This document shows positions 2,919 to 24,046 of a DNA stretch of 24,188 bases, one piece after another; position 1 is the stretch's first letter, and every line of letters begins with the position of its first letter. The notes under the pieces were generated by a model. That model was not told the origin of the DNA. It saw nothing but the letters and a program-made list of their open reading frames with translations, and searched no databases. Origin of the DNA: a virus; IMG/VR virus record IMGVR_UViG_3300024259_000152, positions 1-24,188 of that record; one strand, written 5' to 3'. A program made the translations under genes and the position numbers.

Positions 2919-4100
2919 TTGACAGCACAGCCCGCCATAAGATATAGCGCCTCCCAAGGGGGTGCTGTCGTGAATAAGGGATCTTACTGGCGAATGCCAG
3001 ACGGGCGCTATGTGGTGGGCTACTATTGGCAGGGGAAACAGTGGAAGATCACGCGGTATAATGGCGAACCGATTTGGCATGAATCAATTGCGGTTAAGTG
3101 CCGGTCAGCTTTGCAGGCCAGGGAAGAACAGCACAAAAAGGGCCTTTGTCAATTCCGCATCGAAGAATTTACCGGCAATGGCTGGACGGATGTTCTTGAA
3201 TATTATGAACAATGGATGCAGGAAGTCATTGAACCGAAGCGGAGACCGGCCACAATCAAGGGGTATTGGTCATATTACCGGACTTGGATCAAGCCTTTTT
3301 TTAATCAAAACCCCGTCCGACTCCATGAAATCCAGCTTGACACCCTAACCAAACTTCTGAACTTCATCACCCTCTCCGGGAAGGGCAAATATAATGTTAT
3401 GAACGCCCTTCATTCCATGATGGATTACGCATGGCGGTCAAGGCGGATTCCTGAAATGCCGCCATTCCCTAAGAAGGAAGACTACAACATAGTAATCCCG
3501 ACAATCAAATGGCTATCGGGAGAACGCCAGATGGCCGTTATCAACGCCATACCGGAAATCCATAGGCCCATATTTCTTTGGCTTAAATATCATTACAGGC
3601 GACCGTCTGAGGCGTGTGCGCTTATGTGGGAGGATTACGATGCCATCAATGGAGTCTTTGTTATTAGACGAGCTGTGTCAGCTCGGAAAATTATCAAATC
3701 AACTAAAACAGGCGTTGAACACGTCACCCCGTGTCACCCAGAATACCGGTCTTTTATTAATGGAAATGTCGGAAAAGTTGGCTCTCATATCTTCACAAAC
3801 CCTGCGGCACGTCGTTCGTCAAAACGATATACTGGTGAAAGCCTTAACCGGATTTGGCGTAAAGCCTGCCGACTTATGGGCGAATCAATTGACCTTTACA
3901 GCGGCCTCAAGCATTCCCAATGCAGCCAAGACATCAACGAAAGGGGCTTGACGATATACGATGTGCAGGCTTTAACCGACCACGCAAGGCTTGAATCGGT
4001 GCGCCGGTATGCCAAGGTTTCGGTGGCTCGGAAATTGGAGTTGATGAGTAGGACTACTAAGAAACTACCAAGCCTGAAAATTGTAGGGGATAATGATTAA
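2919..4100 (+). CDS. int: Phage-type tyrosine integrase
   Basis: A 393-residue site-specific recombinase. Residues 20-80 form an arm-DNA-binding-like domain (GSYWRMPDGRYVVGYYWQGK). Residues 85-175 form the SAM-like core-binding domain. The catalytic domain has Arg228 (RRPSEACAL), a likely catalytic Lys263, His355 and the nucleophile Tyr364 (DHARLESVRRYAKV). Box II is unusual: the expected HxxR reads SGLK (328-331) before His332. Start TTG has AGAGGA upstream; GTG at 2970 is an alternative matching the usual family N-terminus. It lacks the extra helix motif of integron IntI proteins as far as I can see, so it should mediate phage integration at the adjacent attP, not cassette exchange. Its 3' end contains two arm-like repeats. 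Confidence 0.9.
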   Translation: MTAQPAIRYSASQGGAVVNKGSYWRMPDGRYVVGYYWQGKQWKITRYNGEPIWHESIAVKCRSALQAREEQHKKGLCQFRIEEFTGNGWTDVLEYYEQWMQEVIEPKRRPATIKGYWSYYRTWIKPFFNQNPVRLHEIQLDTLTKLLNFITLSGKGKYNVMNALHSMMDYAWRSRRIPEMPPFPKKEDYNIVIPTIKWLSGERQMAVINAIPEIHRPIFLWLKYHYRRPSEACALMWEDYDAINGVFVIRRAVSARKIIKSTKTGVEHVTPCHPEYRSFINGNVGKVGSHIFTNPAARRSSKRYTGESLNRIWRKACRLMGESIDLYSGLKHSQCSQDINERGLTIYDVQALTDHARLESVRRYAKVSVARKLELMSRTTKKLPSLKIVGDND

Positions 4101-4246
4101 TATATTCAACAGCTTAAAACGCCCTGCTTGGTTTCGATTCCCATGCACTTCCGCCATTTTCCCCTTTTATTTCGGCACCTTATCTATATTCTCAACCCCA
4201 AAAAACTACCATAAAACTACTAAGTTTTTAATCGGTTTGGTAGTAT
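4053..4246 (+). other. attP region with arm-type repeats on both sides of the core
   Basis: ACTACTAAG (4053-4061) and AACTACCAAG (4063-4072) lie in the last codons of int. AACTACCAT (4204-4212), AACTACTAAG (4215-4224) and the inverted TTGGTAGTAT (4237-4246) lie to the right. They flank the tRNA-like core at 4133-4156. Integrase arm sites on both sides fit an intact phage attachment site; a prophage junction would keep only one arm. AT-rich sequence between arms and core could hold bend-protein sites. Whether Int binds these repeats is inferred from layout only. Confidence 0.65.
4133..4156 (+). other. Attachment core resembling the 3' end of tRNA-Sec
   Basis: TTCGATT is a canonical T-loop, followed by CCCAT (T-stem 3' strand), GCACTTCC, G and CCA. 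Between the T-stem and the terminal CCA there are 8 acceptor bases plus the discriminator, where ordinary tRNAs have 7. Bacterial tRNA-Sec has 8, and E. coli selC also ends in CTTCCGCCA. The 5' part of the tRNA is absent and the base before TTCGATT no longer pairs, so this is a core copy, not a tRNA gene. Confidence 0.6.
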
Positions 4247-4329: not shown

Positions 4330-4524
4330 ATGACAAGAGATAAAACCAAGGTGGGTGATACCGTCTGCGTGAATTTCAATAACGTGCAACATACGCTATC
4401 TTCAGCGGCAACGGTACTGCATGTACCCTGTAATACGGGCGATAGTTGGCAATTTAGGGACATAGGGGCTTGGACTATTCACTATGTTTCTGAGGGGTGT
4501 ACTGTTACCAAGATTGGGGAATAA
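4330..4524 (+). CDS. Hypothetical cassette/moron protein, 64 aa
   Basis: A compact 64-residue protein (KVGDTVCVNFNNVQHTLSSA, then GDSWQFRD, then IHYVSEGCTVTK). The pattern suggests a small all-beta barrel, and the VGDTV...YVSEGCTVTK signature recurs in accessory genes of phages, but no function is known to me. GAAAGGGGCC precedes the ATG. It is the first gene right of attP, in the same orientation as int, and ends in the opening core of attC-like site 8. Confidence 0.75.
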   Translation: MTRDKTKVGDTVCVNFNNVQHTLSSAATVLHVPCNTGDSWQFRDIGAWTIHYVSEGCTVTKIGE

Positions 4525-4571
4525 AACTGAGTTTGGTTCGCCAAACTTTCCATCTACTGACACTGTTATGT
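4519..4571 (+). other. attC-like site 8 with a strong hairpin
   Basis: The TAA stop and AAAAC (4523-4527) open the site and GTTATGT (4565-4571) closes it. AGTTTGG (4530-4536) pairs perfectly with CCAAACT (4541-4547) over a TTCG loop. The hairpin sits off-centre, and TTTCC follows it, so a weak terminator is an alternative reading. Confidence 0.45.
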
Positions 4572-4585
4572 TTGAGGTGAAAATA

Positions 4586-4804
4586 ATGTTGCAAGAGACA
4601 TCAGAAGATTTCGAAGAATGCGAGGCTATAATGAGATCAATTTTGACCGAACAAGAAAAGGCGGCACTAACCCAGCGTCCTATATGGTCGCTTGGTCCAC
4701 CTCAAAGAGAAAGTTATTTGTTTCCCGCGACTTACGCTCGCGGTATGAAAGATTATGCAAAAAGAGTGATTAAACATAACAAATCACTGGACGCGGAGCG
4801 GTAA
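4586..4804 (+). CDS. Hypothetical cassette/moron protein, 72 aa
   Basis: ATG at 4586 is preceded by GAGGTGAAAATA and gives MLQETSEDFEECEAIMRSIL. An upstream in-frame ATG at 4568 lies inside the GTTATG core and has no binding site. The product is a charged, probably helical protein, acidic in its first third and basic towards the end (YAKRVIKHNKSLDAER). No domain is recognised. It is the last plus-strand gene before the convergent phage late genes. Confidence 0.65.
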   Translation: MLQETSEDFEECEAIMRSILTEQEKAALTQRPIWSLGPPQRESYLFPATYARGMKDYAKRVIKHNKSLDAER

Positions 4805-4826
4805 TATACCGGGGTTTCCGTGAAGT

Positions 4827-4877
4827 TGATTTTAACTCGGGTAGGGTAACGCCGCCCGGTCAGTTCAAACGTTATCG
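4827..4877 (+). other. attC-like cassette recombination site 9
   Basis: GATTTTAAC (4828-4836) opens and GTTATCG (4871-4877) closes the site. AACTCGGGTAGGG pairs with CCGCCCGGTCAGTT with two unpaired bases. It marks the right end of the cassette-like region, 36 bases before the 3' end of the minus-strand late genes. A separate CGGTA/TACCG hairpin lies at the end of the preceding gene (4799-4811). Confidence 0.55.
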
Positions 4878-4912: not shown

Positions 4913-5350
4913 CTATGCAGCATCAAACCGCGCATTAGCCTTTTTAAAAGCCCCACCACCACCAAAGGCTACGGCATTAAAATAAGTCATGGCCCGGTAG
5001 CATCTGGCCACGGCAACGGCCTTGTGGCGCCAGCCCTGCGGTCCGGCCTTGTAATGGTTGAAAATAATGATCGTGCAATTCACCATTAGCGACACATCAG
5101 CCTTAAACTTATCCTGCCACGTTTGCCCCTGGCCATACGCTACATCGTGCAGAAAGCAGGCAGGCGTCATCGATAGGCCATAGAACGTATCCGGCACCAA
5201 CTTATCACCAGCTTTCCCTGGCCCACACCCGCCGCCCTTTTCGGACAGCTCAACATCGGTCATGCCCCAAAAGCGGTCGGGAACGAACAAGCCCAGGGTG
5301 CGGAGCTCATGTTTTAAATCTTTTAGTTTTTCAATCGGGAATTTTGACAT
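4913..5350 (-). CDS. Phospholipase A2-like phage protein
   Basis: A 145-residue protein with a likely phospholipase A2-type active site. There is a CGPG loop at residues 42-45 (calcium-loop-like Gly-rich turn), then TPACFLHDVAYG (63-73) with the His68-Asp69 dyad and Tyr72 of the HDxxY motif, and Asp85 in KFKAD as a candidate second catalytic Asp. PLA2 enzymes hydrolyse the sn-2 ester of phospholipids. There is no signal peptide; a basic tail with YFNAVAFGGGGAFKK ends the protein. ATG overlaps the upstream stop (TAATG). As the last late gene next to the DUF5675 gene and a membrane protein, it may act in lysis or membrane disruption. That role is inference; the family is otherwise annotated as hypothetical in prophages. 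Confidence 0.65.
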   Translation of the reverse strand: MSKFPIEKLKDLKHELRTLGLFVPDRFWGMTDVELSEKGGGCGPGKAGDKLVPDTFYGLSMTPACFLHDVAYGQGQTWQDKFKADVSLMVNCTIIIFNHYKAGPQGWRHKAVAVARCYRAMTYFNAVAFGGGGAFKKANARFDAA

Positions 5351-5748
5351 TAGTATACCTCGCTTATCGTTAAATGAAATTCCCGGCCCATATCTTTCAT
5401 GAACGATTTGAACGTGTCGCCGCTGTTGAGTATGGCCCGGTCATTGCCGAGCTTGCCCCAGTTCCGGCCAAGCAGAATACAGCCTTTTGTGTGGTCGTCA
5501 ATATTTCCGGCATGAAAAAGAATGCAGGATCGGCCCGGTACGTTTAAAACCGTGAACGTAATTCCATATTTAGGGGATTGAATTCGATTGCACAGGTATT
5601 GCTGGGCAGGAATGCTTGATATGTTCGAGGCGTTTTCTTCGTCCCGTGGTTCCAGGGTACAGCAAAAGACCTGTTTATCTATCTTTATAATGCCGAAAGT
5701 ACCATGTTCGTAATTTTCTTCCAGCCGTATCAGTTCGACTATTTTCAC
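5350..5748 (-). CDS. DUF5675 family protein, probable lysis-module gene
   Basis: A protein of about 132 residues with the DUF5675 hallmark CILFHAGNIDDHTKGCILLG, followed by GRNWG and the conserved C-terminal stretch. His, Asp and Cys in this motif resemble the arrangement of L,D-transpeptidase-like cell wall enzymes, but the activity of DUF5675 has not to my knowledge been shown. I prefer GTG at 5748 (MKIVELIRLEENYEHGTFGI) with GGAAGG upstream; TTG at 5754 sits too close to that site. Its 5' end overlaps a small zinc-finger gene in another frame, and its stop overlaps the PLA2-like start. Context suggests a late role at the cell wall. Confidence 0.75.
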   Translation of the reverse strand: MKIVELIRLEENYEHGTFGIIKIDKQVFCCTLEPRDEENASNISSIPAQQYLCNRIQSPKYGITFTVLNVPGRSCILFHAGNIDDHTKGCILLGRNWGKLGNDRAILNSGDTFKSFMKDMGREFHLTISEVY

Positions 5749-5854
5749 TTGCAACTACCTTCCGCGCCCTATCCTCACACTCAGGACATAGACACGTGTA
5801 ATTTTCCTTGATATAGATGACATACGTTTGTTTGTGGCACCTATCGCACACCAC
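5675..5854 (-). CDS. Small zinc-finger protein, Com-like (59 aa)
   Basis: GTG at 5854 starts 4 bases after the previous stop and gives MVCDRCHKQTYVIYIKENYT followed by CLCPECEDRARK. The C-x2-C ... C-x-C-x2-C pattern is a zinc knuckle, of the general kind seen in the Mu Com translational regulator and other small phage zinc fingers. It overlaps the start of the DUF5675 gene by about 74 bases in a different frame. The conserved Cys pairs make it likely to be real. No strong binding site is visible, so it may be translated by coupling. The Com comparison is based on size and motif only. Confidence 0.55.
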   Translation of the reverse strand: MVCDRCHKQTYVIYIKENYTCLCPECEDRARKVVASENSRTDTAGRKLRTWYFRHYKDR

Positions 5855-5858
5855 AATA

Positions 5859-6122
5859 TTATTCTTTTCGGATTTCTTTCAGGATAACCATTTGTAACGC
5901 GCGAATGTTTTTAAGTGTTGAACCTATCGCGCTGACATCTTCCCGCGTTTTTGCGATAGCGACATGGTTTTCCTTAACTTCTGAGTACCCAAAACTGCAA
6001 AGCGCAATTATGATTACGACGATTGTCCCGGCTATACCCAGCAAGACAGACTTGTGTATTTTCTTGTTTATTTTAGCTATCAGATTTTCCCGGCAATTCG
6101 TTTCACAGTGTTTTTCACTCAT
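5859..6122 (-). CDS. Small single-TM protein, possible lysis/holin-type
   Basis: Start chosen at 6122 (MSEKHCETNC) because AAGGGGGCC lies just upstream; an in-frame ATG at 6146 has no binding site. The 87-residue product has a polar N-terminus with two Cys, a basic segment (INKKIHKS), one transmembrane stretch at about residues 29-50 (VLLGIAGTIVVIIIALCSFG), then a charged, coiled-coil-like C-terminus ending in KEIRKE. Size, topology and position before the DUF5675 and PLA2-like genes suit a holin or spanin-like membrane partner, but no family signature proves it. Confidence 0.65.
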   Translation of the reverse strand: MSEKHCETNCRENLIAKINKKIHKSVLLGIAGTIVVIIIALCSFGYSEVKENHVAIAKTREDVSAIGSTLKNIRALQMVILKEIRKE

Positions 6123-6174
6123 ACCGGCCCCCTTGACATTTCCCATCGATTCTGACTATTCCCCGTTCAGCCAT
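6115..6174 (-). CDS. Tiny 19-codon ORF with strong RBS, upstream of the TM protein
   Basis: ATG at 6174 follows GGAGGTTTAAGC, one of the best Shine-Dalgarno sequences in the window. It encodes MAERGIVRIDGKCQGGRYE and stops at TGA 6115-6117. The stop overlaps the start of the TM protein (TATGAGTGA), so its translation could control that gene, as with other lysis leader peptides. The product itself is not recognised. Confidence 0.35.
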   Translation of the reverse strand: MAERGIVRIDGKCQGGRYE

Positions 6175-6207
6175 GCTTAAACCTCCAATCAGGTTCGGGT
6201 TTGGTCA

Positions 6208-6239
6208 GGTTGCCGGGGGCCTCAACACTCCCGGCAACC
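6208..6239. terminator. Strong hairpin between tail and lysis genes
   Basis: GGTTGCCGGG (6208-6217) and CCCGGCAACC (6230-6239) form a perfect 10-bp stem. On the minus strand no T-run follows, so it may stabilise or attenuate the late mRNA instead of ending it. On the plus strand GGTTTT follows a few bases later, which could stop antisense transcription. Confidence 0.4.
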
Positions 6240-6247
6240 GCTCGGTT

Positions 6248-6322
6248 TTAACTTTGGCCTTCCCAACTTATACGGAGCCACGCGGCGAGGTTTATAACCC
6301 ACTTCTGCTCGGGTAGACTCAT
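6248..6322 (-). CDS. Tiny 24-codon ORF coupled to the upstream gene
   Basis: ATG at 6322 overlaps the TGA of the preceding gene (ATGA) and encodes MSLPEQKWVINLAAWLRISW plus EGQS. The middle is Trp-rich and amphipathic. The overlap suggests translational coupling, but there is no separate binding site and it may be chance. Confidence 0.25.
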   Translation of the reverse strand: MSLPEQKWVINLAAWLRISWEGQS

Positions 6323-6663
6323 TTTTTCGGATATTTCTTTTTAATTTTCATCCGCTTTTTCTGCAAATCTTCCGCAGCCTCCGGCCTGTTCTCAACAACC
6401 AACTCCCATAACGCCACGCCTATTTCTTCGATTGATGGATACTCGTCCCGCCGTAAATCAGCATAGGTCGGCGCCAACAGTCTCACAGCTGCTTCCTGGC
6501 GTTTTTCTTCAGCCGCGTAATCAAACGGCAAAACTTCTGCCCCATTTTTCTGATTCTCTATAAAATCAAGATAATCAGGATTTGCGCCTGTTGCTGGGAT
6601 TAAAGCTAAATCAGATTGCCGCTGAATAAAACCGTCCCGCATAATTCTATATGATTGCATCAT
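6319..6663 (-). CDS. Tail-fibre-associated protein, 114 aa
   Basis: The N-terminus (SYRIMRDGFIQRQSDLALIP, then NPDYLDFIENQKNG) and the later segment RRDEYPSIEEIGVALWELV match the layout of small proteins found directly after phage tail fibre genes. There an N-terminal beta unit is followed by a conserved R..YPsi..q..alW helix. Such proteins are often called tail fibre assembly or accessory proteins. The C-terminus is very basic (KKRMKIKKKYPKK). Start ATGATG with GGAGAT upstream, just after the tail fibre stop. Role inferred from pattern and position. Confidence 0.6.
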   Translation of the reverse strand: MMQSYRIMRDGFIQRQSDLALIPATGANPDYLDFIENQKNGAEVLPFDYAAEEKRQEAAVRLLAPTYADLRRDEYPSIEEIGVALWELVVENRPEAAEDLQKKRMKIKKKYPKK

Positions 6664-6669
6664 TATCTC

Positions 6670-8079
6670 CTATGCTGACATATACACAATAAAACCGTGG
6701 ATTTCTTTGGTCCCCGAGGCCGTGTATGACGCTGCTCCACCAGTAACGTTATGATAACAGGTTACGACATTGCTATTTTTACCAACAGATATAAGGCCAA
6801 CAATGCTGGTGCCACCGTTATCTTTAGAGCGTCCGTAGCTATAGACATGCCCGACATTGGCTTCTGCATTAGGCAGCGTAAATGTTGTTGATGTACTATT
6901 GCTTGTGCCTTCGATATTAAATATGCAGTAAACGAGCTTGCCAATTGCTGCATAAGAAATTACATTGATTGTTCGAGAAGACCAGCCAACGATTGTTGAG
7001 GTTCCTGAATAATCACTTAATGATAAACCGACACTGTCCCATTCTGGGGCTGTAGCTCCAGCGTTCATACGTAGTTGTTGTAAGGCTGTGCCCTTGGCAA
7101 GGCGGGCCAGAGTGTTTGCTGCCGAAGCATAAACAATATCGCCTTGAGCGGTTAAAAGCGCCTTTGGTTGTAACTGCATCTCATCATAAACCGCGTTTTG
7201 GCTTGGGGCTACTCCTGTCTCTCCATTCCATCCGGCCCCATACGCAGTATTTGAAACTGATTCACCCGCAAGCGCCGTCCCATCAGCCCTGGTATAGTTA
7301 ACACACTGGACCGTATTTGCCCCGGTACTGTAAAATTCGCCCACATCCCCAGCTGCAGTCGTGATGTTGGCTTCTCCCGGCAGGTCAAGGTTTGTGGCAT
7401 GGTGGGTCATTGTCAGAGCACCATCAAACTGCAAAAAAAAGTGCCGGTTCGCAGCTACGGTCATTGCCGCAAATCCGGTTGTACCTGTTACGTCAAAATA
7501 ATCACCATCGGTACCAACGACCAAAGGGCTGGCTGATGCAATGTCACCACCCTTAGCCATGTTTAGGGTCACACCTGACAGGGTGTCGGCCCCGCCTTCC
7601 CATGCCCCAAGCCAAATGCCGTCCCCGGTAAATGCCACGGCCCCATCGCCAGAAAATATTTGGTAGGCCCCGGCTTGAATTGATCCCTGTATGGTCAAGG
7701 TCTTTCCAGACGCCACCGAGTATTCAACGCCATACGGTATCTGAAGGTGGATGGTAGACCCAAGGGTTTTGTCGGCGCTGATTGTATAGGTGCCGGCGAT
7801 TGGTTCCATTACAACATCGGTATAGGTCTTTGAGATATGACTCGTCTTTGAAAGGGTGATGTCAAAACCTTGAAAGCTCCCATAATCAAAGTCGTCTGTA
7901 TAAAACGTGAAAGACCCATCGGTTGAAGATGATGTAACCGAGTTGACCGCCGTTGTGCCGGCAACGGTTGTATAGATATTCGCGGCGGTTTCTGTGCCGG
8001 TAAGGAAAACAGATATCGTTCCGTCTTGGACGATGTTGCCGCTGCCGTCCCTGTATGCTCCTTGGAAAATTCGTCTCAT
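6670..8079 (-). CDS. Tail fibre / receptor-binding protein
   Basis: A 469-residue beta-rich structural protein. The N-terminal 100 residues (RRIFQGAYRDGSGNIVQDGT) look like a virion-attachment domain in which a Ser/Thr-rich segment is followed by FTFYTDDFDYG. Typical fibre motifs follow: an AVYDEMQ segment preceded by GVAPSQN, and GDIVYASAANTLARLAKGTA followed by APEWD, which are recurring shaft units in phage fibres. The C-terminal 110 residues are Gly/Ser/Thr-rich, probably the receptor-binding tip. No endosialidase or lyase motif is seen, so it is more likely a fibre than an enzymatic spike. It follows the ejection proteins in the late operon; GGGAAAAG lies upstream of the ATG. Confidence 0.8.
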   Translation of the reverse strand: MRRIFQGAYRDGSGNIVQDGTISVFLTGTETAANIYTTVAGTTAVNSVTSSSTDGSFTFYTDDFDYGSFQGFDITLSKTSHISKTYTDVVMEPIAGTYTISADKTLGSTIHLQIPYGVEYSVASGKTLTIQGSIQAGAYQIFSGDGAVAFTGDGIWLGAWEGGADTLSGVTLNMAKGGDIASASPLVVGTDGDYFDVTGTTGFAAMTVAANRHFFLQFDGALTMTHHATNLDLPGEANITTAAGDVGEFYSTGANTVQCVNYTRADGTALAGESVSNTAYGAGWNGETGVAPSQNAVYDEMQLQPKALLTAQGDIVYASAANTLARLAKGTALQQLRMNAGATAPEWDSVGLSLSDYSGTSTIVGWSSRTINVISYAAIGKLVYCIFNIEGTSNSTSTTFTLPNAEANVGHVYSYGRSKDNGGTSIVGLISVGKNSNVVTCYHNVTGGAASYTASGTKEIHGFIVYMSA

Positions 8080-8117
8080 TCGTCTTTTCCCTTTATTTCT
8101 TCTTTATTGCCTGCTTT

Positions 8118-10715
8118 TCATAGTTCCCGATCTTCTGTTATCTCCGTCTCTATATCGTCAATAACACGCTTGCCAGCTCCAGCAAACCAAAGATTCATAG
8201 CATTGTTTAACTGAACCAAGTTGGCCTTTCTTACATCTGGTTTGTCTAAAGGAAGCAACAGCGCCTTTAAGAGTTTTGGGTCATCTGAAAGCATTGCGTC
8301 AATTATGAGCTGTTTTGCTCGGTCTACGTTTAAGTGGCTTGCGAAAGCCCTGAACCGTTCTGAAAATATACCCGGTGTTTGGACTGTTCCGCCGCCCGTT
8401 AACCCTGCGACAAATCTTCCAATCTGGGCACCACCTACTCTACTGACAAGATTTAAAGCACTTGATGCTGCGTCTTTCATTTTTATCTCTACATTCCCGC
8501 GGCTTTTTTCAAGCATTTCTATTTTTGACAATTCTGTACCGGCCTTTCTAATCCTTGCTATTTGTTCTGGCGTAAAAACTTCTTTTAGTACTCTGTTTTC
8601 CCTTTTCACAAGGCCCAATAGCGTCCTGCCGGAAAGAACCCTTTCGCCGACCTCGTTAAACCCCCCTATGTGCGCCCTATCAAGCAGGTTTTCTATAAAC
8701 CCGGCCCTTAACCCGCCAATCGCCCTGCCTGTCTTGTCTTTTGATGCCTTTAAAACCATGTCTTTAGTCAGCCTAATTGAACTTGTGGCAGCTTTTATTT
8801 CTTTCCCCAAATCAAGGGCATTAAGAAATTTAGCGGTCAATCCTATGTTTTTGTCCATTAAGTTGGTTTTTCTTTTTGTCATTTCAAGCGTTGTTTTCTC
8901 TGCTATACCCTGTGCCGAAGACGCATCAGCAAGTTGTTTTTGCAAAGCTGGGAATTGGTCTAAAATCGCTTCATTGTTTCCAATCCACCGCTCAGCCTGT
9001 GATAGGTTTATTTTGCCTGTAGTTTGGTTTACTGAATAATCCGCGAAACTTCGCGCTATATACCGCTCGGCGGCCTTTCTTGACTCAGGCGATACGAGTA
9101 CCTTATCAATATCAACCGCACCCCTTTGGGCCTGTCTGCCAATACTAATATCAAGCGTAAGTGATGGATCAATAGAGGGCGCCCCTGACTTGTCAGACCC
9201 AAGAATTTTGCCAACGACACCAGACTCAAAGCGTTGTTTGAAATGTTTTGTTGCTGCAATAGCCGCCTGTAAGTCAGCAGCTTGTGGAGATGACGCTACA
9301 CCAGCAGAAACACCAATATCATCAAGAACAGCGTCGGCCATAGTTTCGGCAATTCTCGACTTGTTCCACTGTCCGTCTTTTCTGGCAATCCTGGCAGTTT
9401 CAAGCAACTTAGATCGCAACCCCTGCATTTCCCTCAGTACCGTTCCGTCAAGTTTTTTCTTGTTTATTATGGGATTGCCTTTAAGTGGTATTGGTATATC
9501 CACCTTTTCAGCCTTGGACAAATTCGATAACAATTCAGCATATGTTTTTCTTGTATTCTCGACACCAATAGGGTGATTTTTGTCTACTTTAGACCATATA
9601 TCAGCAACAGCCTTACGCTCCGCTCGCCTTGCGTTATCAAGCTCATTTCTAACGATAACCGATTCAAGCCCCTTGCGTTTTGCTACCGGAATGGCATCCA
9701 TCTTTGCCTTGGCCTTAGAAGTAGCATCGAGAATTCTGTTGTCCATTTTTAGCTGAAGCGAACCAACCCTTTTGCGTGTTATTTCTCCGAGCAATTCAGG
9801 AGATCCGTACCCAAGCTTCCTAAGATTATTTTCAATCGCTAAAATTGACTTGCTAATTTTTTCTATTGATTTTTTTTGCGCCATTGGATCTTGCTCAATG
9901 AGAGACTTGTACAACTCGACAAGTTTCTTTTCACCGGAAACTACAGCAGGGGGTAAATCGCCAACCGCTTCTTTAGAGATAGTCCCTACCGTTGCTTCTG
10001 CGTCTGGAACCAGCTCCTTTGCAAACTTTCCGGCCCTAAACACAGACCCCTTCTTTGAGAAAGGCACTGATAGTTTTTGTAATATATGCTTTCCGCCCCT
10101 TATCGCTATCATTGTGGGTGTGTTTATAAGTAGCGAAGGCGACGTTCCTCCGATAACCCCACCGGCAATCTCGGCAGTTGTTCGCAACGCGGGACTTTCT
10201 TGGAAAGATTCTTCGCCAACCGCCCGACCCAACCCGGCTCCAACGCCGCCTGTGGCCTCGCTTACTATTGCGGTTGCCGGATTTCTGGCCATAGATTTAA
10301 TTATCGTAGAAGATATTTGTGATATAAGACCCTTACCCTTCGCAAGCATTTTCATGCCAACACCGCCTGGAACCAACAGCCCTGCAACCTCACCCACACC
10401 CTGAGCGGCGAAGTCTGCTGCTGTTTCGGGATTTTCTTTGTCTCCGGCTGGTGGCGCGCCAATTTTCCCAAAACCCTTCCCAATGCTTTTCCTACCTAAA
10501 AAGGGTTCGTCGATATCAACGCCAGGTATAAGGTTTAGACCTGATGTTATAAGATCAACAGGGGCACCCAGCGTTCCAGCTATTGCCTTGTTGGCAAACC
10601 GCATAGGGTTGTTCCCGCCGTCATCTTCAACCCTTTTGAATTCATCAAATGGGTTTACATCTGGAACAGCGCCTACATCGTCAACCCTCTTGAACTCGTC
10701 AAATGGGTTTCTCAT
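8118..10715 (-). CDS. Large internal (ejection-type) virion protein, 865 aa
   Basis: The largest of three consecutive genes in the place of the P22 ejection proteins (gp7, gp20, gp16). The N-terminus carries a short tandem duplication, NPFDEFKRVDDVG and NPFDEFKRVEDDG. Gly/Ala-rich, mildly hydrophobic segments follow (residues 40-190, e.g. GEVAGLLVPGGVGMKML), and then about 600 residues of charged, helical sequence. Low-complexity Gly/Ala stretches that can insert in membranes plus long helices are usual in ejected proteins that form the DNA channel across the envelope. ATG overlaps the previous stop (TAATG). Identity to a named P22 protein cannot be shown by eye. Confidence 0.65.
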   Translation of the reverse strand: MRNPFDEFKRVDDVGAVPDVNPFDEFKRVEDDGGNNPMRFANKAIAGTLGAPVDLITSGLNLIPGVDIDEPFLGRKSIGKGFGKIGAPPAGDKENPETAADFAAQGVGEVAGLLVPGGVGMKMLAKGKGLISQISSTIIKSMARNPATAIVSEATGGVGAGLGRAVGEESFQESPALRTTAEIAGGVIGGTSPSLLINTPTMIAIRGGKHILQKLSVPFSKKGSVFRAGKFAKELVPDAEATVGTISKEAVGDLPPAVVSGEKKLVELYKSLIEQDPMAQKKSIEKISKSILAIENNLRKLGYGSPELLGEITRKRVGSLQLKMDNRILDATSKAKAKMDAIPVAKRKGLESVIVRNELDNARRAERKAVADIWSKVDKNHPIGVENTRKTYAELLSNLSKAEKVDIPIPLKGNPIINKKKLDGTVLREMQGLRSKLLETARIARKDGQWNKSRIAETMADAVLDDIGVSAGVASSPQAADLQAAIAATKHFKQRFESGVVGKILGSDKSGAPSIDPSLTLDISIGRQAQRGAVDIDKVLVSPESRKAAERYIARSFADYSVNQTTGKINLSQAERWIGNNEAILDQFPALQKQLADASSAQGIAEKTTLEMTKRKTNLMDKNIGLTAKFLNALDLGKEIKAATSSIRLTKDMVLKASKDKTGRAIGGLRAGFIENLLDRAHIGGFNEVGERVLSGRTLLGLVKRENRVLKEVFTPEQIARIRKAGTELSKIEMLEKSRGNVEIKMKDAASSALNLVSRVGGAQIGRFVAGLTGGGTVQTPGIFSERFRAFASHLNVDRAKQLIIDAMLSDDPKLLKALLLPLDKPDVRKANLVQLNNAMNLWFAGAGKRVIDDIETEITEDREL

Positions 10716-12214
10716 TATCTCACCCTCGGTGTTCCATATGCATCAATAAATTTAGTCCCAGGTTCTAGCTTCCTTGCTTCTTCTACTGTATTCATAGTAG
10801 GTGGCGCACCAAGAATTTTAAGGAAATTTCTAATGTCATTTGCAGACCTACGGGCAGCCTTACGCGTTTCTGCTGGCAGGCTTGTGTCATTTGAAGCCCA
10901 ATCCTCATTTTTCAACCTAATTTGAAGTTGCTCATCTATGGCAAGCGCCCGCTGTTTGAACAATGCGGGGTTGTCAAATACGGATGAACCCAAACTTATC
11001 TCTTTCTTGATTCGGTTTATTTCACCAACCGGAAATCTTGGATTTATTGATAACGCCCGAATTAGCTCATTTGTTGCGGTTGCCACAAACTGTCTGGCCC
11101 TAGCTGTCTTTTTGGCTATTGGGCCACCCACCATTCCTGAAACAACCGAACCGGCTTGTCGTGCAGCAGATATAGGCCCCGTTGCTAATCCAGCCAGCCC
11201 GTATATGGTTGTGATAGGTTTATTTACGCCAGAACCTTCGCCAATAACGACCTCCTGTTTTAGTTTGGTTTCTTCGCCACTTATTAGGTCAACTAAAAAC
11301 CTTTCGTTTGTAACAGGACTTTGGATAACCTTTTTTGTATTGAGGATCAACCCAGTAGCGTCCTGTTCTGAAAGGCCTGGATTCACTTTAAGCAAACGCG
11401 CTATTTTCTTTTGAAATACCGGGTCTTCACCCTCACCTGCGCCTCCGCCGCCGATTTGAACAAGCGACTTGTTACCACCCTCGTCAGAAACAATCTGATA
11501 CGCGGCACCATTTAAAGAAAGAATATCTTCTTTTGGGTTCATAAGCGATGAAGAACTAAGGCTCCTGTTATATTCCGCTATATCGTCATTAGAGGCACCA
11601 GGGTTGTTCTGTAAATACGCCCCTATTGCTGTTGTGGGGGTTTTTGCCCCCATAAGCTTTTTTACAAAATTATCTGCGGCTGTGCGCTCTGTTACAAGTA
11701 CGTTCCTACGGGCCTGAAGTTGTTCAAGCTTCTTTGATTCGATCATGCCGGAATTTATCTCTTGGTCAATTGCCGCGATTTCTTCCTGTGCGCCCCTGGC
11801 CCTGAGTGTGCTAAACTCAATATTAAAACCAGTATCACCCAAAATTTTTCCCCAAACCTCTCTGGCGTGGTTTGTCTGGATAGTCGGCAGTCCGCTTGCC
11901 GGACCATTTTGGATGTAAGGCCCCGCGTATTTCATTAAAAGCTCTTGCTCTGCGGGACGGCTTAAACCCATCTTTGTTAGCATTTCACCAACAGGAATAA
12001 GCTGCGTTTCTTTTTCTTTTTGCGCGATGGTGAGTTCCGCAACCCTGCTTTGCAGCCCTGCGGATTCTTCCGCTATATCAAGACGCTTTTGCTGTATGGC
12101 AAGACCTGCTGCATCACTGTCCACCTTCCGTTTGTGCTCAAGCAACCCAAGCCCTGTTGCTGCCATATTCCCGGTAGCCCTTTCGGCCCCCTGCCAAAAT
12201 CCGTAATTAGGCAT
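10715..12214 (-). CDS. Internal (ejection-type) virion protein, 499 aa
   Basis: A 499-residue protein with an N-terminal Gly/Ala segment (NYGFWQGAERATGNMAATGL), a helical heptad-like region to about residue 200 (QKRLDIAEESAGLQSRVAEL), and a Gly-rich middle (VQIGGGGAGEGEDP). A second hydrophobic Gly/Ala stretch near residues 340-370 contains YGLAGLATGPISAARQAGSV. It overlaps its upstream neighbour by 8 bases and its downstream neighbour by 1, so it is co-translated with the other two ejection-type genes. The assignment rests on position and composition, not on a motif. Confidence 0.6.
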   Translation of the reverse strand: MPNYGFWQGAERATGNMAATGLGLLEHKRKVDSDAAGLAIQQKRLDIAEESAGLQSRVAELTIAQKEKETQLIPVGEMLTKMGLSRPAEQELLMKYAGPYIQNGPASGLPTIQTNHAREVWGKILGDTGFNIEFSTLRARGAQEEIAAIDQEINSGMIESKKLEQLQARRNVLVTERTAADNFVKKLMGAKTPTTAIGAYLQNNPGASNDDIAEYNRSLSSSSLMNPKEDILSLNGAAYQIVSDEGGNKSLVQIGGGGAGEGEDPVFQKKIARLLKVNPGLSEQDATGLILNTKKVIQSPVTNERFLVDLISGEETKLKQEVVIGEGSGVNKPITTIYGLAGLATGPISAARQAGSVVSGMVGGPIAKKTARARQFVATATNELIRALSINPRFPVGEINRIKKEISLGSSVFDNPALFKQRALAIDEQLQIRLKNEDWASNDTSLPAETRKAARRSANDIRNFLKILGAPPTMNTVEEARKLEPGTKFIDAYGTPRVR

Positions 12215-13475
12215 GTGTTACCTCCACTTTTCGGCTTATTGACCGGCCAAGAAAATTACAAACCGGGATGCCTATTTTCATCAACACCGCACCCAAAATA
12301 TTTTCATTCCCGGCCATGTGGTTTGCCCAAGCCATGCCAAAGGGCTTTATCGCCCAAGTAAACAGCTTGCTTCTTTTCATCAGGTTCGCGGCTGGGATAC
12401 CCCAAAGGTGATAACCCGCCATGGTTTCCGGTTCTACTGCTACGCCAAAAGCTTTGTCAGCTTCAAAAATATCATCAGGCATGATGCCTTGCCGGTAAAG
12501 TTCCGTACAAATCACAGTCCCAACGGCATCCGATATAACCCTTTCTGCTGGGGCTAAAGGGTTCAGCACATCAAGAACTGTGTTGACGATTGGCACGTCA
12601 CCGACAACCTCTTTCACCCAATATTGTGTCGCATTTAATGGCCTGTCGAGGGATTCCCCAACCTTGTGTTGTATCGTTCCTTCTTCAGTATTGTTCATAA
12701 TTGCCCCACCAGCGAGCTTGGCCGCTGCATAATAAGGAACGACCTTAGCAGCCACGGCTGCCGTCCCTCCAACAATCCCTGATGTAGTTGGTGCGGCTGC
12801 GGTTGCACCTGCGCCACCTATACCACCATAACCAGACGCAGCGGCCCCCGCGGCCGAGCCTGTTGCAGACGCGGCGGAAGTAGCACCAAGGCCCGCCGCT
12901 GTTGAAGTCGTGGCAGCCCCAGAAGAAAACAGCCCGCCTATTTTTGTGCCCATACTACCGAAAAACGGTTGCCCTGAATTCGCAACCTGCAAAGCCCTTA
13001 TGGTCCCAGCCGTTGACAATAAATTCCCAGCCGTCCCAACCATCCCTGAAATTTGCGCCTGTTCTGCCGCATCCGCGCGTTCGGCGCGATCTTTAGCATC
13101 TGTGGATGTTTTATAATCAAGGTTTTGGGCAAACTGACTTTTGGTGGTGGCAAGGTTTTGGGCAAACTGGGATTCGTTGGCAGCAAGAGACTTGTCAAGC
13201 TGGGCTTCTTTGGCAGCAAGAGACTTGTCAAACTGGGATTCGTTGACAGAAAGAGACTTGTCAAACTGGGCTTCTTTGGCAGCAAGAGACTTGTCAAACT
13301 GGGATTCGTTGACAGAAAGAGACTTGTCAAACTGGGCTGCCTGTAACGCCCGCGCCTCTCGTCCTGGTGCTGCCGCGTATTCCCGCTGAAGACGTTCAAT
13401 CTCTAAAAGCAGTGCCGGGTCAACGGAATACCGACGCCCAAGCGCCTTTCTTGTTTTATAAGATGTGTACGCCAT
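12207..13475 (-). CDS. Internal virion protein with 11-residue repeats, 422 aa
   Basis: The first 47 residues are basic and helical. Residues 48-124 are seven consecutive 11-residue repeats of the form QFDKSLSVNES / QFDKSLAAKEA, degrading to QFAQNLATTKS at the end. Repeats of 11 fit a right-handed coiled coil or a long amphipathic helix. The middle (about 140-260) is Gly/Ala-rich (GLGATSAASATGSAAGAAAS), and the C-terminal 150 residues are compact with PFGMAWANHMAG. This fits the first ejection protein of a P22-like trio. GGAGGCTAT precedes the ATG. Confidence 0.65.
   Translation of the reverse strand: MAYTSYKTRKALGRRYSVDPALLLEIERLQREYAAAPGREARALQAAQFDKSLSVNESQFDKSLAAKEAQFDKSLSVNESQFDKSLAAKEAQLDKSLAANESQFAQNLATTKSQFAQNLDYKTSTDAKDRAERADAAEQAQISGMVGTAGNLLSTAGTIRALQVANSGQPFFGSMGTKIGGLFSSGAATTSTAAGLGATSAASATGSAAGAAASGYGGIGGAGATAAAPTTSGIVGGTAAVAAKVVPYYAAAKLAGGAIMNNTEEGTIQHKVGESLDRPLNATQYWVKEVVGDVPIVNTVLDVLNPLAPAERVISDAVGTVICTELYRQGIMPDDIFEADKAFGVAVEPETMAGYHLWGIPAANLMKRSKLFTWAIKPFGMAWANHMAGNENILGAVLMKIGIPVCNFLGRSISRKVEVTHA
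13104..13334 (-). repeat. 33-bp tandem repeat tract within the ejection-protein gene
   Basis: Seven 33-bp units encode the 11-residue repeats. The first four alternate in pairs, making a 66-bp unit present twice with almost no change, which points to recent duplication. The last three have diverged. Frame is kept throughout. Confidence 0.85.
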
Positions 13476-13483
13476 ATAGCCTC

Positions 13484-16297
13484 CTAATCCTTATGCGTTG
13501 CGTGATACTTTGCTATCATCATCAGCGGTTCAAAGCCGGTTGTTTCGTCGTCTGTAACCATCGTGAGCTTGAAACTATGAAACGGATTCCCGTCAAGCTG
13601 CTCGTCAAATTCAGGGATAGCCGCGCCGTGGCCGCTATTGGCCGGCGACATGGTTTTCGCTGTGCCGGAAGTTGATGTATCAGAATAATGGGTGAGTGTT
13701 ATTTCGTTTGCCGTTGTGGTTTTGGCGGTCGTTATCAACCGAACCCCGTCAAGCCTGGTCCCAAACTCAAGGGCATCTAACGCAATTTCCCCAAAGTGGA
13801 CGGTATGGGTTATGTCGGTTCCGTCAAAGGTGGTGCCGTTCTCAAGGCGTTCCATATAGCCGGTATCAATAAAGCCGTAAGAATATGGATTGCCGTCTGT
13901 GTCTCTAACCTCAACCCCACATTGCAAATATGTCCCCCGGTCGATTTCAAACCACTTGTTTCTTGGGATGTCATAAACAAGCTCTTTATTCAGCGCCGTC
14001 GCGCCGGTCCCAGAGGCAAACCACCAATGGTATCTTTGTCTTAAATGGTCTATGGTTCCGACTGAATCACCAACCATAGACGCCTTGATGCTCCTTGAGT
14101 CTCTTGGGTCAAAGTATTCCTTAATATCGCCATGGATGGGAATTGGAGAGCGGCCATCAGACATATAGATACCGTTGGCACCCTGCCAGATAGCTAAAGA
14201 TCGTGTTGATGGAGTGTCTCCGGAATTGGAAAACAGGCTTATGGTCTTTAGCGTAAGAGGGGCCGGGCAACCGATACCAGAGGCGACAAGAAATATATTA
14301 TTTGCCCATTCGTCAATATCTTGGCCGACAACCATCCAAGACTCTGTGTCTTTAAACATCAAGATTACTGAATACAGGGCAGATCCAAACTGACTAAAAA
14401 GCTCCGTCCCGCAAGTCAATTCCCCTTCTTCGCCAAAATAGATATCAACGGAGTCCACCCCGTTGTAAACCTGAGGCATGTACTTTCCCGAACAAATAGC
14501 CTTGTTTTTAGCGCCAGACATGTCACAACAAAGCAACGTGCGACCCTGTGCAAAAACCGGGAATTTGAAGTGACTGACTGTTTCTGGTGCGGATATCCCA
14601 CCAATATAATCAATCCTGACGGATGCGTCTAATGCCTCGTCAAATTTAACCCTGTAATAATAGAGACTTGCGCTATTCGCGTATTGCTTTTTTTGTTCGC
14701 TTGCCAAGTCTGTGTTGTTCCATGACAATACCCCGGTTTTTGTGAAAGACGTTCCTGTGGTCGTGGTGCCGTCCGAGACATTACCGACCGATACATAACT
14801 TGAACCGCCCCAATAATCCACCGAAGCCAACCCTGCATCCACCCCACCCGTCAATGTGCCCGAACCATCAACGGCCATATTTGTTGAATTTTCTGTAAAA
14901 ACAATAGCGTTTCCGGCTGTCCCGGTGGTAACAGCCGTTATATCAACCGTATCCCCGGCCCCATCCGCCGCTGTGACAGTGCTTAAATCCGCAGTGACAG
15001 CGGTGACTATGTTCGTCACGGCATCTGCTGCGCTCGCACCTATGGTGACCTCCCCGGCTACAGAACGAGAAGCCTTCCATGTGAATGTCTGGTCGTCGAT
15101 TACAAAGGTTTCATCCGCAACCGCGATCCCGGACATTGTTATAACGCCGGTGGCTGCGACGGCAACGGCATGGCTGTTTTCATATCCCGGCACAATCGCC
15201 ACATATAGACCCGTCTGTTTTTCAATAAACCCGATTTCTAAATATTGCGTTGTAGCGGCCAGAGAGCTTATATCAGCGTATGTTGAGGCGGTTGTAGGGT
15301 CGTAATCCTCTCTAAACACATTAATGCTTTTGTCAGATTGTGAGGACGTATAGACATAAAATCTTGCTATGTCCCGATAGATGCCGTCCCAAATGTCAAT
15401 AATATTTTGAAATGGTAAGTCCAGCGTAATATGCGAAATACCCGCCGACCCATCATCTATGGTAAATTCATACCAATAGAGATAATACCCCTCTAAATAT
15501 TTGGTTTTGGTTGTGGCCACAGTTGTCGGCCAAGTGATTGATCCCGTTTGTGCGAAAGTTTTCCCAGAGGCCCGCGTACCGTCCGCGTCGGCCGTTATCG
15601 TCGTCCATACACCTGCTGTGGATTCTTTTATGGTCAGCGTGTTCGCGGTTGTATTTGCCGATGATACGGTAAATGTCGCCCCCTTTGCCGGGCGGGTTGA
15701 CCCAATCAAAAATGTTTTGTACGATCCCCCACAAGTCATAACATTCGCTGCGTCAGACTTGGTGTTGTTCATTTGATCGGTATAATCTTTCGGACTTGTT
15801 GCGACCGAAATTGCGGCTGCAAGCGCCACAGTGGTTTGTATTACAGCCCCGACCTTCGTTTCATTCCCGCCCCAGATACAAGTATCAACACCATTTGCAT
15901 AAAGCACCTGGCCATCCGGCGCGATTGAAAAACGCCCTGTCCCAGCTCCCGACGAATCGGTATAAAGGGCTGTCGCTGAAAAGTTCCCGGCTGAAGGAAT
16001 TGCCGCGGTGTTTTCCAAAACCTGCGAGGCGGTCAACCCGGTATTATATGCCTGGGCCAGAACGTGGCTTTCAGCGGGTTGCTTTTTGTCAAAATGAAAG
16101 GCATTGCGGGCCTTTAAATAAGTGGCGTTCATAACGGAAGAATTGATTTTCGTCATGCCGGCCACGCCCTTTAGGTGGGTATCTGTGTACTCAAGGTTTT
16201 TAAGATCCCTGTAATTTTCACCAATGGCGGTGGCGTTTGACGTTATCAACCTCCCTGAGAAAGGAATGTTCTTTGATTTCGTGCGTTTATCTGTCAT
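13484..16297 (-). CDS. gp10-like DNA stabilisation (tail hub) protein, enlarged
   Basis: A 937-residue protein in the position of P22 gp10, which closes the portal after packaging and joins the tail. The N-terminus (NIPFSGRLITSNATAIGENY) and the C-terminal third (MVVGQDIDEWANN, QGANGIYMSDGRSPIPIHGD) fit that family, but P22 gp10 is about half as long. The extra part holds two related beta domains (about residues 200-295 and 490-570, both with DGT...G..F..TG...W...YY) and between them a TTGTAGNAIVFTENS module (about 380-488) common in phage tail proteins. ATG overlaps the gp4-like stop (ATGA). Confidence 0.75.
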   Translation of the reverse strand: MTDKRTKSKNIPFSGRLITSNATAIGENYRDLKNLEYTDTHLKGVAGMTKINSSVMNATYLKARNAFHFDKKQPAESHVLAQAYNTGLTASQVLENTAAIPSAGNFSATALYTDSSGAGTGRFSIAPDGQVLYANGVDTCIWGGNETKVGAVIQTTVALAAAISVATSPKDYTDQMNNTKSDAANVMTCGGSYKTFLIGSTRPAKGATFTVSSANTTANTLTIKESTAGVWTTITADADGTRASGKTFAQTGSITWPTTVATTKTKYLEGYYLYWYEFTIDDGSAGISHITLDLPFQNIIDIWDGIYRDIARFYVYTSSQSDKSINVFREDYDPTTASTYADISSLAATTQYLEIGFIEKQTGLYVAIVPGYENSHAVAVAATGVITMSGIAVADETFVIDDQTFTWKASRSVAGEVTIGASAADAVTNIVTAVTADLSTVTAADGAGDTVDITAVTTGTAGNAIVFTENSTNMAVDGSGTLTGGVDAGLASVDYWGGSSYVSVGNVSDGTTTTGTSFTKTGVLSWNNTDLASEQKKQYANSASLYYYRVKFDEALDASVRIDYIGGISAPETVSHFKFPVFAQGRTLLCCDMSGAKNKAICSGKYMPQVYNGVDSVDIYFGEEGELTCGTELFSQFGSALYSVILMFKDTESWMVVGQDIDEWANNIFLVASGIGCPAPLTLKTISLFSNSGDTPSTRSLAIWQGANGIYMSDGRSPIPIHGDIKEYFDPRDSRSIKASMVGDSVGTIDHLRQRYHWWFASGTGATALNKELVYDIPRNKWFEIDRGTYLQCGVEVRDTDGNPYSYGFIDTGYMERLENGTTFDGTDITHTVHFGEIALDALEFGTRLDGVRLITTAKTTTANEITLTHYSDTSTSGTAKTMSPANSGHGAAIPEFDEQLDGNPFHSFKLTMVTDDETTGFEPLMMIAKYHATHKD

Positions 16298-17019
16298 CCA
16301 AGCACCGAATATTGATCCAATTCCGAAGATGATGTATTAGCCGGTTGAAGCCGTGACTTCCCTACCATCGGAACATCTGTTTCAATCGGCTTCGGCAAGC
16401 GGGTCGCTGCATTTGAGTGTCCGATTTCTTCTTTAAGTTCCTGCGCCCGCATTATGACCGATGGCCGAACAGTCCTATCCCAATCCTCACCGAGAGCAAT
16501 GGCCAGGTTATAAACCAACAGGTCGTTATCTTCGGGCGGCAAGGTTACTGTCGTTGATGTAGCCGCAAAAACCGTGATAGGTTTCCAAGACTCAAAATAG
16601 AAAGTGTATGCGTAATCCGGGCTGCGGTTGAAAATTATCCTGGCGTTGGTCTTTTCAGGAATAAAATAAAACCCTGTAGGCTGGCCGGACGTGGCCTTGT
16701 TTATAACATCCCCAAGCCCCCTGGAAGAAAGCAACCTGCACCTGTTATCATAGCTGTCTGAGTCTCTTAGGTACGCCGTATCCTCAATCCTTATAGGGCG
16801 TACAGTTACAAAATTTCCCGCTGGTCCGATGGTATATTCGGACGTGCCAACAATAAGAGTGGCGCTTTCGCGGGCAACAGCCGGTTGTAAAAACTCAATG
16901 CCCAAAGAACCAAGCATATTGTTTAGTGATATCAAGGCGCTGGCTGTCTGGGCGGTTGTGATGGTGTTAACCGACACCTTTTTTGCGGCTGCTGTTATTA
17001 TCTCGCCTGCTGTCGTCAC
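16294..17019 (-). CDS. gp4-like head-tail adaptor
   Basis: A 241-residue protein matching the P22 tail accessory factor gp4 family by length, place and pattern. It has an N-terminal helical start (TTAGEIITAAAKKVSVNTIT), then SALISLNNMLGSLGIE, then GTSEYTIGPAG and a C-terminal helical DWDRTVRPSVIMRAQELKEE. In P22, gp4 binds under the portal as the first tail protein. GTG start with GGGGGGAA upstream overlaps the preceding stop by 4 bases (GTGA). The unstructured Ser-rich C-terminus (NTSSSELDQYSVLG) is as in relatives. Confidence 0.8.
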   Translation of the reverse strand: MTTAGEIITAAAKKVSVNTITTAQTASALISLNNMLGSLGIEFLQPAVARESATLIVGTSEYTIGPAGNFVTVRPIRIEDTAYLRDSDSYDNRCRLLSSRGLGDVINKATSGQPTGFYFIPEKTNARIIFNRSPDYAYTFYFESWKPITVFAATSTTVTLPPEDNDLLVYNLAIALGEDWDRTVRPSVIMRAQELKEEIGHSNAATRLPKPIETDVPMVGKSRLQPANTSSSELDQYSVLG

Positions 17020-17792
17020 GATTCCCCCCAGTTATATTTTGTTGTCTCATGCTCACCGAATAGGTTTTTAAGGTCGCTTGAAAGAGCCACACAACCCCAA
17101 TTATCATGCTCGAGCATCGCCTTTAAAAGACCGCCCGACTTGTTTATTAGAAACCCACCGAAAGCCTTTATCACCTGGGCCATGCGCTCACATTGAACAA
17201 AATGGCCAGGGTGTGTCAGGTAGTCCCTGCCCCCGGCCCTAACAACGATAAGGTTTTTGCCATTGCCAAGCCCCTCGGCATCATAGGCATGGAGCTTTTT
17301 GACAAAAGAGCCGTCACACCCGAAATAGTGGACTTCCCGATACCCCATTTTCGCAAAAAGTAGCGGGGTAAATGTTATGAGCGTTGGGCCACCTGTAATG
17401 CCGCCCGGCGAGTCAAAAGAAACCGGCCACGTTCTGACATCATCTTGATTGAAAAGCTTAAACTGATTTTTATGAACCCTTGTGGCCAAAAGCGCACCTG
17501 TAACCAGCGGCCCCGGCTTGAAAGGTTCTTGGGCGCAATCGCACATGAGCAAGCGTAATCCAATCCCGTTGTCAGATAAATATGTCGCGGCCCCGTTGAC
17601 ACCGTAAATATCTCCGGGGAATTTCTTCAAATCGTCAAAATGTTCGTCAAGTGATGGCCCGCCCCCCACAACCGCACAAATGCCACGGCCAGACTTGAAA
17701 GCAACCGGGCGGTACTTCTTTGACCATTTGCAGTTTGCATCGATTTCTTCCTGGGTGTAACCGCAAATGGAATTTACCTTAAGTTCAAACAT
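17016..17792 (-). CDS. MptE-like / DUF115-type Rossmann protein
   Basis: A 258-residue protein with VVGGGPSLDE (residues 41-50), the glycine loop of the DUF115 / 6-hydroxymethylpterin diphosphokinase MptE-like group. GITGGPTLITF and YFGCDGSF follow, both typical of that fold. Relatives include archaeal MptE and bacterial proteins linked to flagellin glycosylation, so a diphosphokinase or glycosyl-transfer activity is possible but unproven here. It lies between the coat/fibre genes and the gp4-like adaptor and overlaps the latter by 4 bases, so it is made with the head proteins. Phage genomes carry such genes without known role. Confidence 0.7.
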   Translation of the reverse strand: MFELKVNSICGYTQEEIDANCKWSKKYRPVAFKSGRGICAVVGGGPSLDEHFDDLKKFPGDIYGVNGAATYLSDNGIGLRLLMCDCAQEPFKPGPLVTGALLATRVHKNQFKLFNQDDVRTWPVSFDSPGGITGGPTLITFTPLLFAKMGYREVHYFGCDGSFVKKLHAYDAEGLGNGKNLIVVRAGGRDYLTHPGHFVQCERMAQVIKAFGGFLINKSGGLLKAMLEHDNWGCVALSSDLKNLFGEHETTKYNWGES

Positions 17793-17834
17793 TCATGTCC
17801 TTGGAGAGGGGATTTCTCCCCCCTCCTGTTTGGG

Positions 17835-18038
17835 TTAAGCACACAGACCAAGCGACACCAGACATGCCTTGATAGCGGCAATGTCAATCACGTTGTCCGC
17901 AGCCGAAGCAGAGCTGGCCAGCAAAGTTATGGTGGGCTTGACAATCGGGGCCGTCAGTCCAAAAAACCCGATTTTGTCACCAGACCGGCCAAAATTCACA
18001 CCGTCGTCGTTTCCATTACCTAAGTATTCAACCGCCAT
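17835..18038 (-). CDS. Small head-fibre/decoration-like protein, 67 aa
   Basis: The sequence DKIGFFGLTAPIVKPTITLL is the recurring KIGFFG.tP...P motif of short phage proteins that sit after the coat gene and are often called head fibre proteins. A Ser/Ala-rich middle and a C-terminal short helix (IDIAAIKACLVSLGL) follow, which could trimerise. GGAGG stands before the ATG, overlapping the end of the coat gene region. A decoration role on the capsid is likely but not proven. Confidence 0.65.
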   Translation of the reverse strand: MAVEYLGNGNDDGVNFGRSGDKIGFFGLTAPIVKPTITLLASSASAADNVIDIAAIKACLVSLGLCA

Positions 18039-18050
18039 TTTCTTGCCTCC

Positions 18051-19271: not shown

Positions 19272-19274
19272 TGG

Positions 19275-20066: not shown

Positions 20067-20079
20067 GGTTTTTCCTTCT

Positions 20080-20091
20080 CGGCTTAAGCCG
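20080..20091. promoter_or_regulatory. Perfect 12-bp palindrome before the scaffold gene
   Basis: CGGCTTAAGCCG is fully self-complementary and lies between the terminator and the scaffold ribosome binding site. It could be an operator or a small mRNA hairpin near the start codon. No clear sigma-70 promoter is seen next to it. Confidence 0.3.
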
Positions 20092-20100
20092 GTTAGCTTG

Positions 20101-20148
20101 GGTAATAAAAAAGGCGAACCAACCGGGTTTTTCCGGTCAATTCGCCTT
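20101..20148 (-). terminator. Rho-independent terminator inside the head operon
   Basis: Read on the minus strand, AAGGCGAA (20148-20141) pairs with TTCGCCTT (20118-20111), with an inner ACCGG/CCGGT stem, and is followed by TTTTATTACC. This is a strong terminator shape placed after the portal and a tiny gene and before scaffold and coat. It would lower or separate transcription unless antiterminated. Confidence 0.75.
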
Positions 20149-20191
20149 GGTTTTTCCAATAACGAAACGTTAAGTTGTCAAAGAGCTATTT

Positions 20192-23920: not shown

Positions 23921-24045
23921 TATGCTTCTCCCGGCAAAATCTCGTAATAATCATAACCGCCTTCGCTACGCACTCGGACAACTTGCTCTATTCGGGAAGG
24001 GCAGGCCCTTTTATGTCTCTGAAATTTTGGGGGGGAAGTGTACAT
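23920..24045 (-). CDS. Possible short protein, 41 aa
   Basis: ATG at 24045 (MYTSPPKFQRHKRACPSRIE) lies two bases after the TGA of an upstream frame and has GGGGGTG before it. The product ends with GGYDYYEILPGEA. Its stop overlaps the next GTG by one base (TAGTG), as expected for an operon. The frame stays open to the window edge, so a longer protein reading from outside is the alternative. Confidence 0.4.
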   Translation of the reverse strand: MYTSPPKFQRHKRACPSRIEQVVRVRSEGGYDYYEILPGEA

Positions 24046-24046
24046 A

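Follow-up and report, generated by a model that had tools for sequence, protein, structure and literature searches.

The first 5 kb of a viral contig from IMG/VR combine attC-like sites, a tyrosine recombinase gene and a short block of tRNA sequence, which raises the questions of where in a bacterial chromosome this phage integrates, in which host, and whether the cassettes beside the integrase gene belong to the phage genome. We took the whole linear virus record IMGVR_UViG_3300024259_000152 (24,188 bases) as the window of analysis. A 99.97% identical contig, L137, runs 176 bases past the right end of the window (24188) and does not overlap its left end. The window very probably contains the complete attP of a temperate P22-like phage of Desulfobacterota that targets the tRNA-Sec gene (selC), with lambda-type integrase sites, in its joined form and with the cassettes inside the phage genome.

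The identity block of the attP, TTCGATTCCCATGCACTTCCGCCA (4133–4156, plus strand), is an exact tRNA-Sec 3' end, CCA included. No complete tRNA was called in the window by ARAGORN, and positions 4133–4156 represent the 3' end alone. The 8-base acceptor strand noted in a preliminary description of this DNA can be read directly in the block: its 8-base GCACTTCC pairs with GGAAGTGC, found at the 5' end of genuine tRNA-Sec genes. An Rfam scan of the window returned only a chance snoRNA match (4563–4640). A scan of two collections for the exact 24-mer matched 21 other viral contigs and at least 115 genome contigs. Among the matches listed, ARAGORN called a tRNA at 105 of 137 exact core occurrences, and all 105 were tRNA-Sec, in agreement with the proposed target selC. 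A better match in another tRNA gene, which the preliminary description had named as evidence against selC, was looked for and did not arise among the matches listed, where no tRNA other than tRNA-Sec was called by ARAGORN at the exact core. The core occurrences without a tRNA call were mostly without a tRNA body, resembling attP or displaced attR, and a few were clipped by contig ends. In L027 (1132 and 4214), another exact core lies 3 kb downstream of a tRNA-Sec gene and may mark a small integrated element.

The integrase gene int (2970–4100, plus strand) has a probable GTG start at 2970, in a reading frame open from a TTG at 2919. Its product was recognized by the Pfam Phage_integrase profile (PF00589, E=2.9e-10, above the cut-off) and by a PHROG integrase family (E=3.3e-28), and the relatives aligned with it were 38–58% identical. 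With a XerA alignment as guide, R227/R228, K263 and Y364 were invariant in the family, and the catalytic domain contains the Arg I, Lys, His III-type and Tyr nucleophile residues of tyrosine recombinases. At the Arg II position, 12 of the 13 members of the family have Lys (K331) and only L178 has Arg; the His of the His-x-x-Arg motif was not aligned in the family. The second Arg of this motif is absent or replaced in some tyrosine recombinases and is not strictly defining. Because the departure is common to the whole family, membership rests on the other features, and because the Lys stands at a catalytic position, activity of the integrase is not assured. An AlphaFold2 model of the integrase (pLDDT 85.8, pTM 0.54) has three N-terminal strands and a helix ahead of the core-binding and catalytic domains. 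The model aligns with full-length lambda Int (1z1b) from its residue 4 onward (Z 17.4, rmsd 8.9 over 306 residues, 12% identity) and also matches Tn1549 Int, and the N-terminal part is predicted to be an arm-binding domain.

A homologue of the integrase was present in 17 of the 21 other viral contigs bearing the core. A single-protein search of viral contigs with the integrase gave no match; the search among core-bearing contigs did yield homologues. An alignment-based search made without the core recovered 13 integrase loci, 11 of which have the core or a variant of it (TTCGATTCCCATGCGCCTCCGCCA in L186); at the other two, the contig ends at the int stop codon. The family is not confined to selC, as L234 adjoins a tRNA-Pro. 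At L233 (G192:C28, 12379–13798), the layout is the reverse of that in the window, with an intact tRNA-Sec followed downstream by a convergently oriented integrase of the family. Strong matches (E below 1e-130) were rare in Desulfobacterota, occurring in 2 of 395 drawn genomes and 2 of 16 chosen genomes. An integrated copy of the window phage with attL and attR at selC was not found; attR-like ends of related integrases were present in L230, a Desulfobacteraceae contig whose integrase is 52% identical, and in L231.

The search of host genomes for selC with the exact core, proposed as a check, was productive: among the matches listed, the titled genome records bearing the core were nearly all Desulfobacterota (Desulfobacterales, Desulfobulbaceae, Syntrophales and others), together with a few Planctomycetota. 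The preliminary description had mentioned selC as an integration hot spot in enterobacteria. This comparison does not apply, as both the core and the family of the integrase indicate Desulfobacterota; it concerns the same gene in another clade. Enterobacterial selC was accordingly rejected as the target, the exact core recovering Desulfobacterota and Planctomycetota. A planctomycete host is less likely, since the integrase was found in none of 12 core-bearing genomes, including seven Planctomycetota, in what was a small test. Judged from the sequence, the host is probably a Desulfobacterota bacterium and the virus a phage of sulfate-reducing bacteria.

Identity with tRNA-Sec starts at the T-loop, and the match is lost within 4–5 bases to the left of it. 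The predicted 7-bp strand-exchange overlap, TTCGATT (4133–4139), is the T-loop of tRNA-Sec and was placed by half-site symmetry: it is followed by the right core half-site CCCATGCAC (4140–4148) and preceded by the left core half-site CTGCTTGGT (4124–4132), an imperfect inverted copy of the right one, all three given on the plus strand. In 18 att sites, the half-site register gave a mean of 6.8 matches out of 12, compared with 1.9–4.3 at shifted positions. The attP-side consensus left of the core in these sites, TGC-TGGG, mirrors CCCATGCAC, whereas host tRNA-Sec genes have GGTGGG, preceded by variable bases, at the left half-site position. This difference suggests two 9-bp half-sites around the 7-bp overlap TTCGATT, and from the left half-site we infer that strand exchange takes place in the T-loop. 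Crossover in the T region is a known subsite for integration into tRNA genes (PMC4383910). Two selC phages with an unrelated integrase, L018 and L021, have a longer tRNA-Sec block that starts from the anticodon loop, indicating that two selC subsites are in use.

Arm repeats flank the core on both sides and are distinct from the core half-sites, as in lambda-type attPs. The P-arm pair, ACTACTAAG and ACTACCAAG spaced 11 bp apart (4053–4072, plus strand), lies within the 3' end of int, which ends at 4100. The P'-arm pair consists of the degenerate copy ACTACCATA (4205–4213) and ACTACTAAG, again 11 bp apart (4205–4224, plus strand). The ACTACYAAG-like repeats reported earlier on both flanks of the core, two of them inside the int coding region, are thus present as these two pairs. 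A fifth arm-like copy, ACTACCAAA (4236–4244, minus strand), is inverted with one mismatch and may be due to chance. The motif ACTACYAAG has exactly three occurrences in the 24-kb window (4053, 4064, and 4216; 0.22 expected; three copies reached in 0 of 100 shuffles) and its paired 20-mer form has two, both at the attP (0.00 expected), counts that are post hoc as the motif was read off the sequence first. In a motif-free test, the left/right similarity was reached by 1.05% of shuffles, and similarity plus 11-bp periodicity on both sides by none of 2000.

Most relatives also had arm repeats flanking the core on both sides, mostly with 11-bp spacing, and the position range of the P arms (−80 to −50) was the same. 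The arm sequence itself is private, being alike within one phage and different between phages, with a mean left/right similarity of 13.9 within phages versus 8.0 between phages. The window's own left/right score of 11.2 is modest and was reached by 7 of 210 between-phage comparisons. The score has limits, as the attR of L230 reaches 13.2 without visible matching arms, probably through low-complexity A/T sequence, and L230 was excluded from the argument from arm agreement.

Several mutually similar attC-like sites are present in the first 2.9 kb of the window, and one more lies to the right of the attP. They were defined by mutual homology; the stem score alone is unspecific and overlaps chance, and the number of sites is provisional. 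All on the plus strand, the sites left of int are located at 47–130 (98% identical over 80 nt to 1274–1353), 518–600, 961–1046, 1273–1356, 1778–1893, and 2189–2293, with probable sites at 1502–1630 (its start like 2746–2783, its end like 2507–2524) and at 2747–2846, directly upstream of int. The site to the right of the attP, repeat D4 (4775–4876, plus strand), is homologous to 518–600 over 40 aligned columns at about 82%, with a local alignment score of 49 against a null maximum of 27 in 300 shuffles; its stem score by itself was not significant. The first cassette ORF (148–516), between two attC-like sites, matches a moron membrane protein family (phrog_1486, E=6.5e-12). No integron integrase was recognized in the contig, and attC clusters without one are known in phages (Qi et al. 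2023, PMC9892861); a cluster of this type (CALIN) would comprise two or more attC sites.

Two small ORFs follow the attP on the plus strand, at 4330–4524 and 4586–4804, the second stopping within the attC-like site 4775–4876. The remainder of the window is a phage late region on the minus strand (4913–24156) that ends beside the attP and encodes a DUF5675 protein (5350–5754; PF18925, E=5.6e-27), a P22-like coat protein (18051–19271) and a P22-like portal protein (20320–22047), these two with matches to PF16510 (E=2.4e-145) and PF11651 (E=6e-24), and, by a weak match, the large terminase (22048–23736; phrog_10250, E=0.0017). The order of int, attP and late genes pointing back toward it is shared with L020 and L018, which have int, core, small ORFs and convergent late genes, and the late genes of L009 likewise converge on the core. 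In L018 and L021, a DUF5675 homologue occupies the equivalent position. Relatives of the terminase were found neither in the named phages searched nor in the 395 Desulfobacterota genomes. The 18 records that encode a related terminase all lack a PF00589 integrase, and a temperate life is thus not evident for the structural relatives.

The preliminary description had taken the contig as the circular or virion form, with the cassettes inside the phage. As an inference this is supported by the attC-like site on the right, by the gene order across the attP, and by a uniform G+C content (0.46–0.47 over 1–12 kb of the window). The candidate attC-like sites on both flanks of the attP imply that the cassettes would travel inside the phage, a view strengthened by the site at 4775–4876.

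A tandem junction at selC, in which int and the cassettes come from a left element and the late genes from a right element, would produce a similar arrangement. Such arrays exist: contig C55 of the deltaproteobacterial genome bin-9048 (G055) carries three tRNA-Sec-type cores (1409 and 19268 in L231, 4420 in L232) and two different integrases, and the lack of a tyrosine integrase in the structural relatives of the window's right side also fits this explanation. However, the arms across the inter-element junction of C55 are mismatched (score 5.8), while the two ends of the right-hand element agree with each other (13.2). In the window, the two flanks of the core have the same arm motif and spacing, attC-like sites of a single type lie to the left and right, and G+C is even, which makes a tandem junction improbable. 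Given the mismatch at the C55 junction, the matched arms of the window argue that both sides of its core belong to one element in joined, non-integrated form. The earlier reading of an attP with arms on both sides is thus sustained by relatives with an equivalent architecture and by this tandem-junction control.

A chimeric assembly, in which int and cassettes from a selC island were wrongly joined to the late region of a phage, was also considered, as the join at about 4.2–12.8 kb, which connects the int/attP half with the late genes, is present in this contig alone; two near-identical contigs span just 12.8–24.2 kb. The gene order at the join is nevertheless normal for such phages, the DUF5675 gene is equally distant in another selC phage, and the composition is even without an obvious break, so that a chimera is very unlikely. 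That the core is the attR of an integrated prophage, with host DNA to the right of 4157, has been largely refuted and has next to no probability: left arms and core alone would look alike, as they do at L230, but on the right come matching arms and, beyond them, the late genes of a phage in a convergent operon that includes a P22-like coat and portal.

Under the preferred reading, of a complete attP in a joined phage genome, the tyrosine integrase would bind the 9-bp half-sites CTGCTTGGT and CCCATGCAC around TTCGATT, and its predicted N-terminal domain would bind the paired ACTACYAAG arms, spaced by one helical turn, on either flank, forming an intasome of the lambda type. The host tRNA-Sec gene would be split by strand exchange in its T-loop and restored by the phage's 24 bp through CCA. 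In the resulting prophage, the restored tRNA would adjoin the late-gene side, with int at the opposite end. The contig would represent the joined, non-integrated form, whose integron-type cassettes flank the attP and would travel in the phage.

The arrangement resembles lambda attP in having two putative core half-sites around a 7-bp overlap, separate arms on both flanks and a predicted arm-binding domain. It differs in that the arms are paired at 11 bp with private sequence and the P-arm pair lies inside int, and the integrase differs from lambda Int in its 12% identity and in the Lys at the Arg II position. In the comparison with lambda, neither Xis nor an IHF site was identified at the window attP. 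The enterobacterial selC elements phiR73 and LEE-type islands target the same tRNA gene; we take them to differ from the window phage in host clade and in the tRNA-Sec acceptor sequence, and no enterobacterial relative of the window was seen. In Islander-type integration into tRNA genes, the target gene is restored by a 3' tDNA fragment, and arrays in tandem have been described (PMC4383910). The 3' tDNA block of the window would act likewise, whereas its target is selC of Desulfobacterota, and the window's phage set was not found in the named collections. Like the phage attC clusters of Qi et al. 2023 (PMC9892861), the window has attC-like sites and small ORFs without a recognized integron integrase; unlike them, its putative attC sites flank the attP of a temperate phage on both sides. 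Phage attPs that use tRNA genes are already known, and so are phages with attC clusters; the combination in this phage is unusual.

These results connect an otherwise unplaced, cassette-carrying phage contig with a probable host phylum and with a precise site in the chromosome. They also describe a group of integrases with a single common target, selC of Desulfobacterota, and arm sequences that are private to almost every phage. Such private arms may be a means for tandem prophages at the same site to avoid cross-talk. It is conceivable, though most unlikely, that the int-attP module between the attC-like sites 2747–2846 and 4775–4876 moves as an oversized integron cassette; if it did, phages would be able to exchange attachment specificity via integrons. 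Should the cassettes really be part of the phage, temperate phages infecting sulfate reducers could ferry integron cassettes from cell to cell and leave them at selC.
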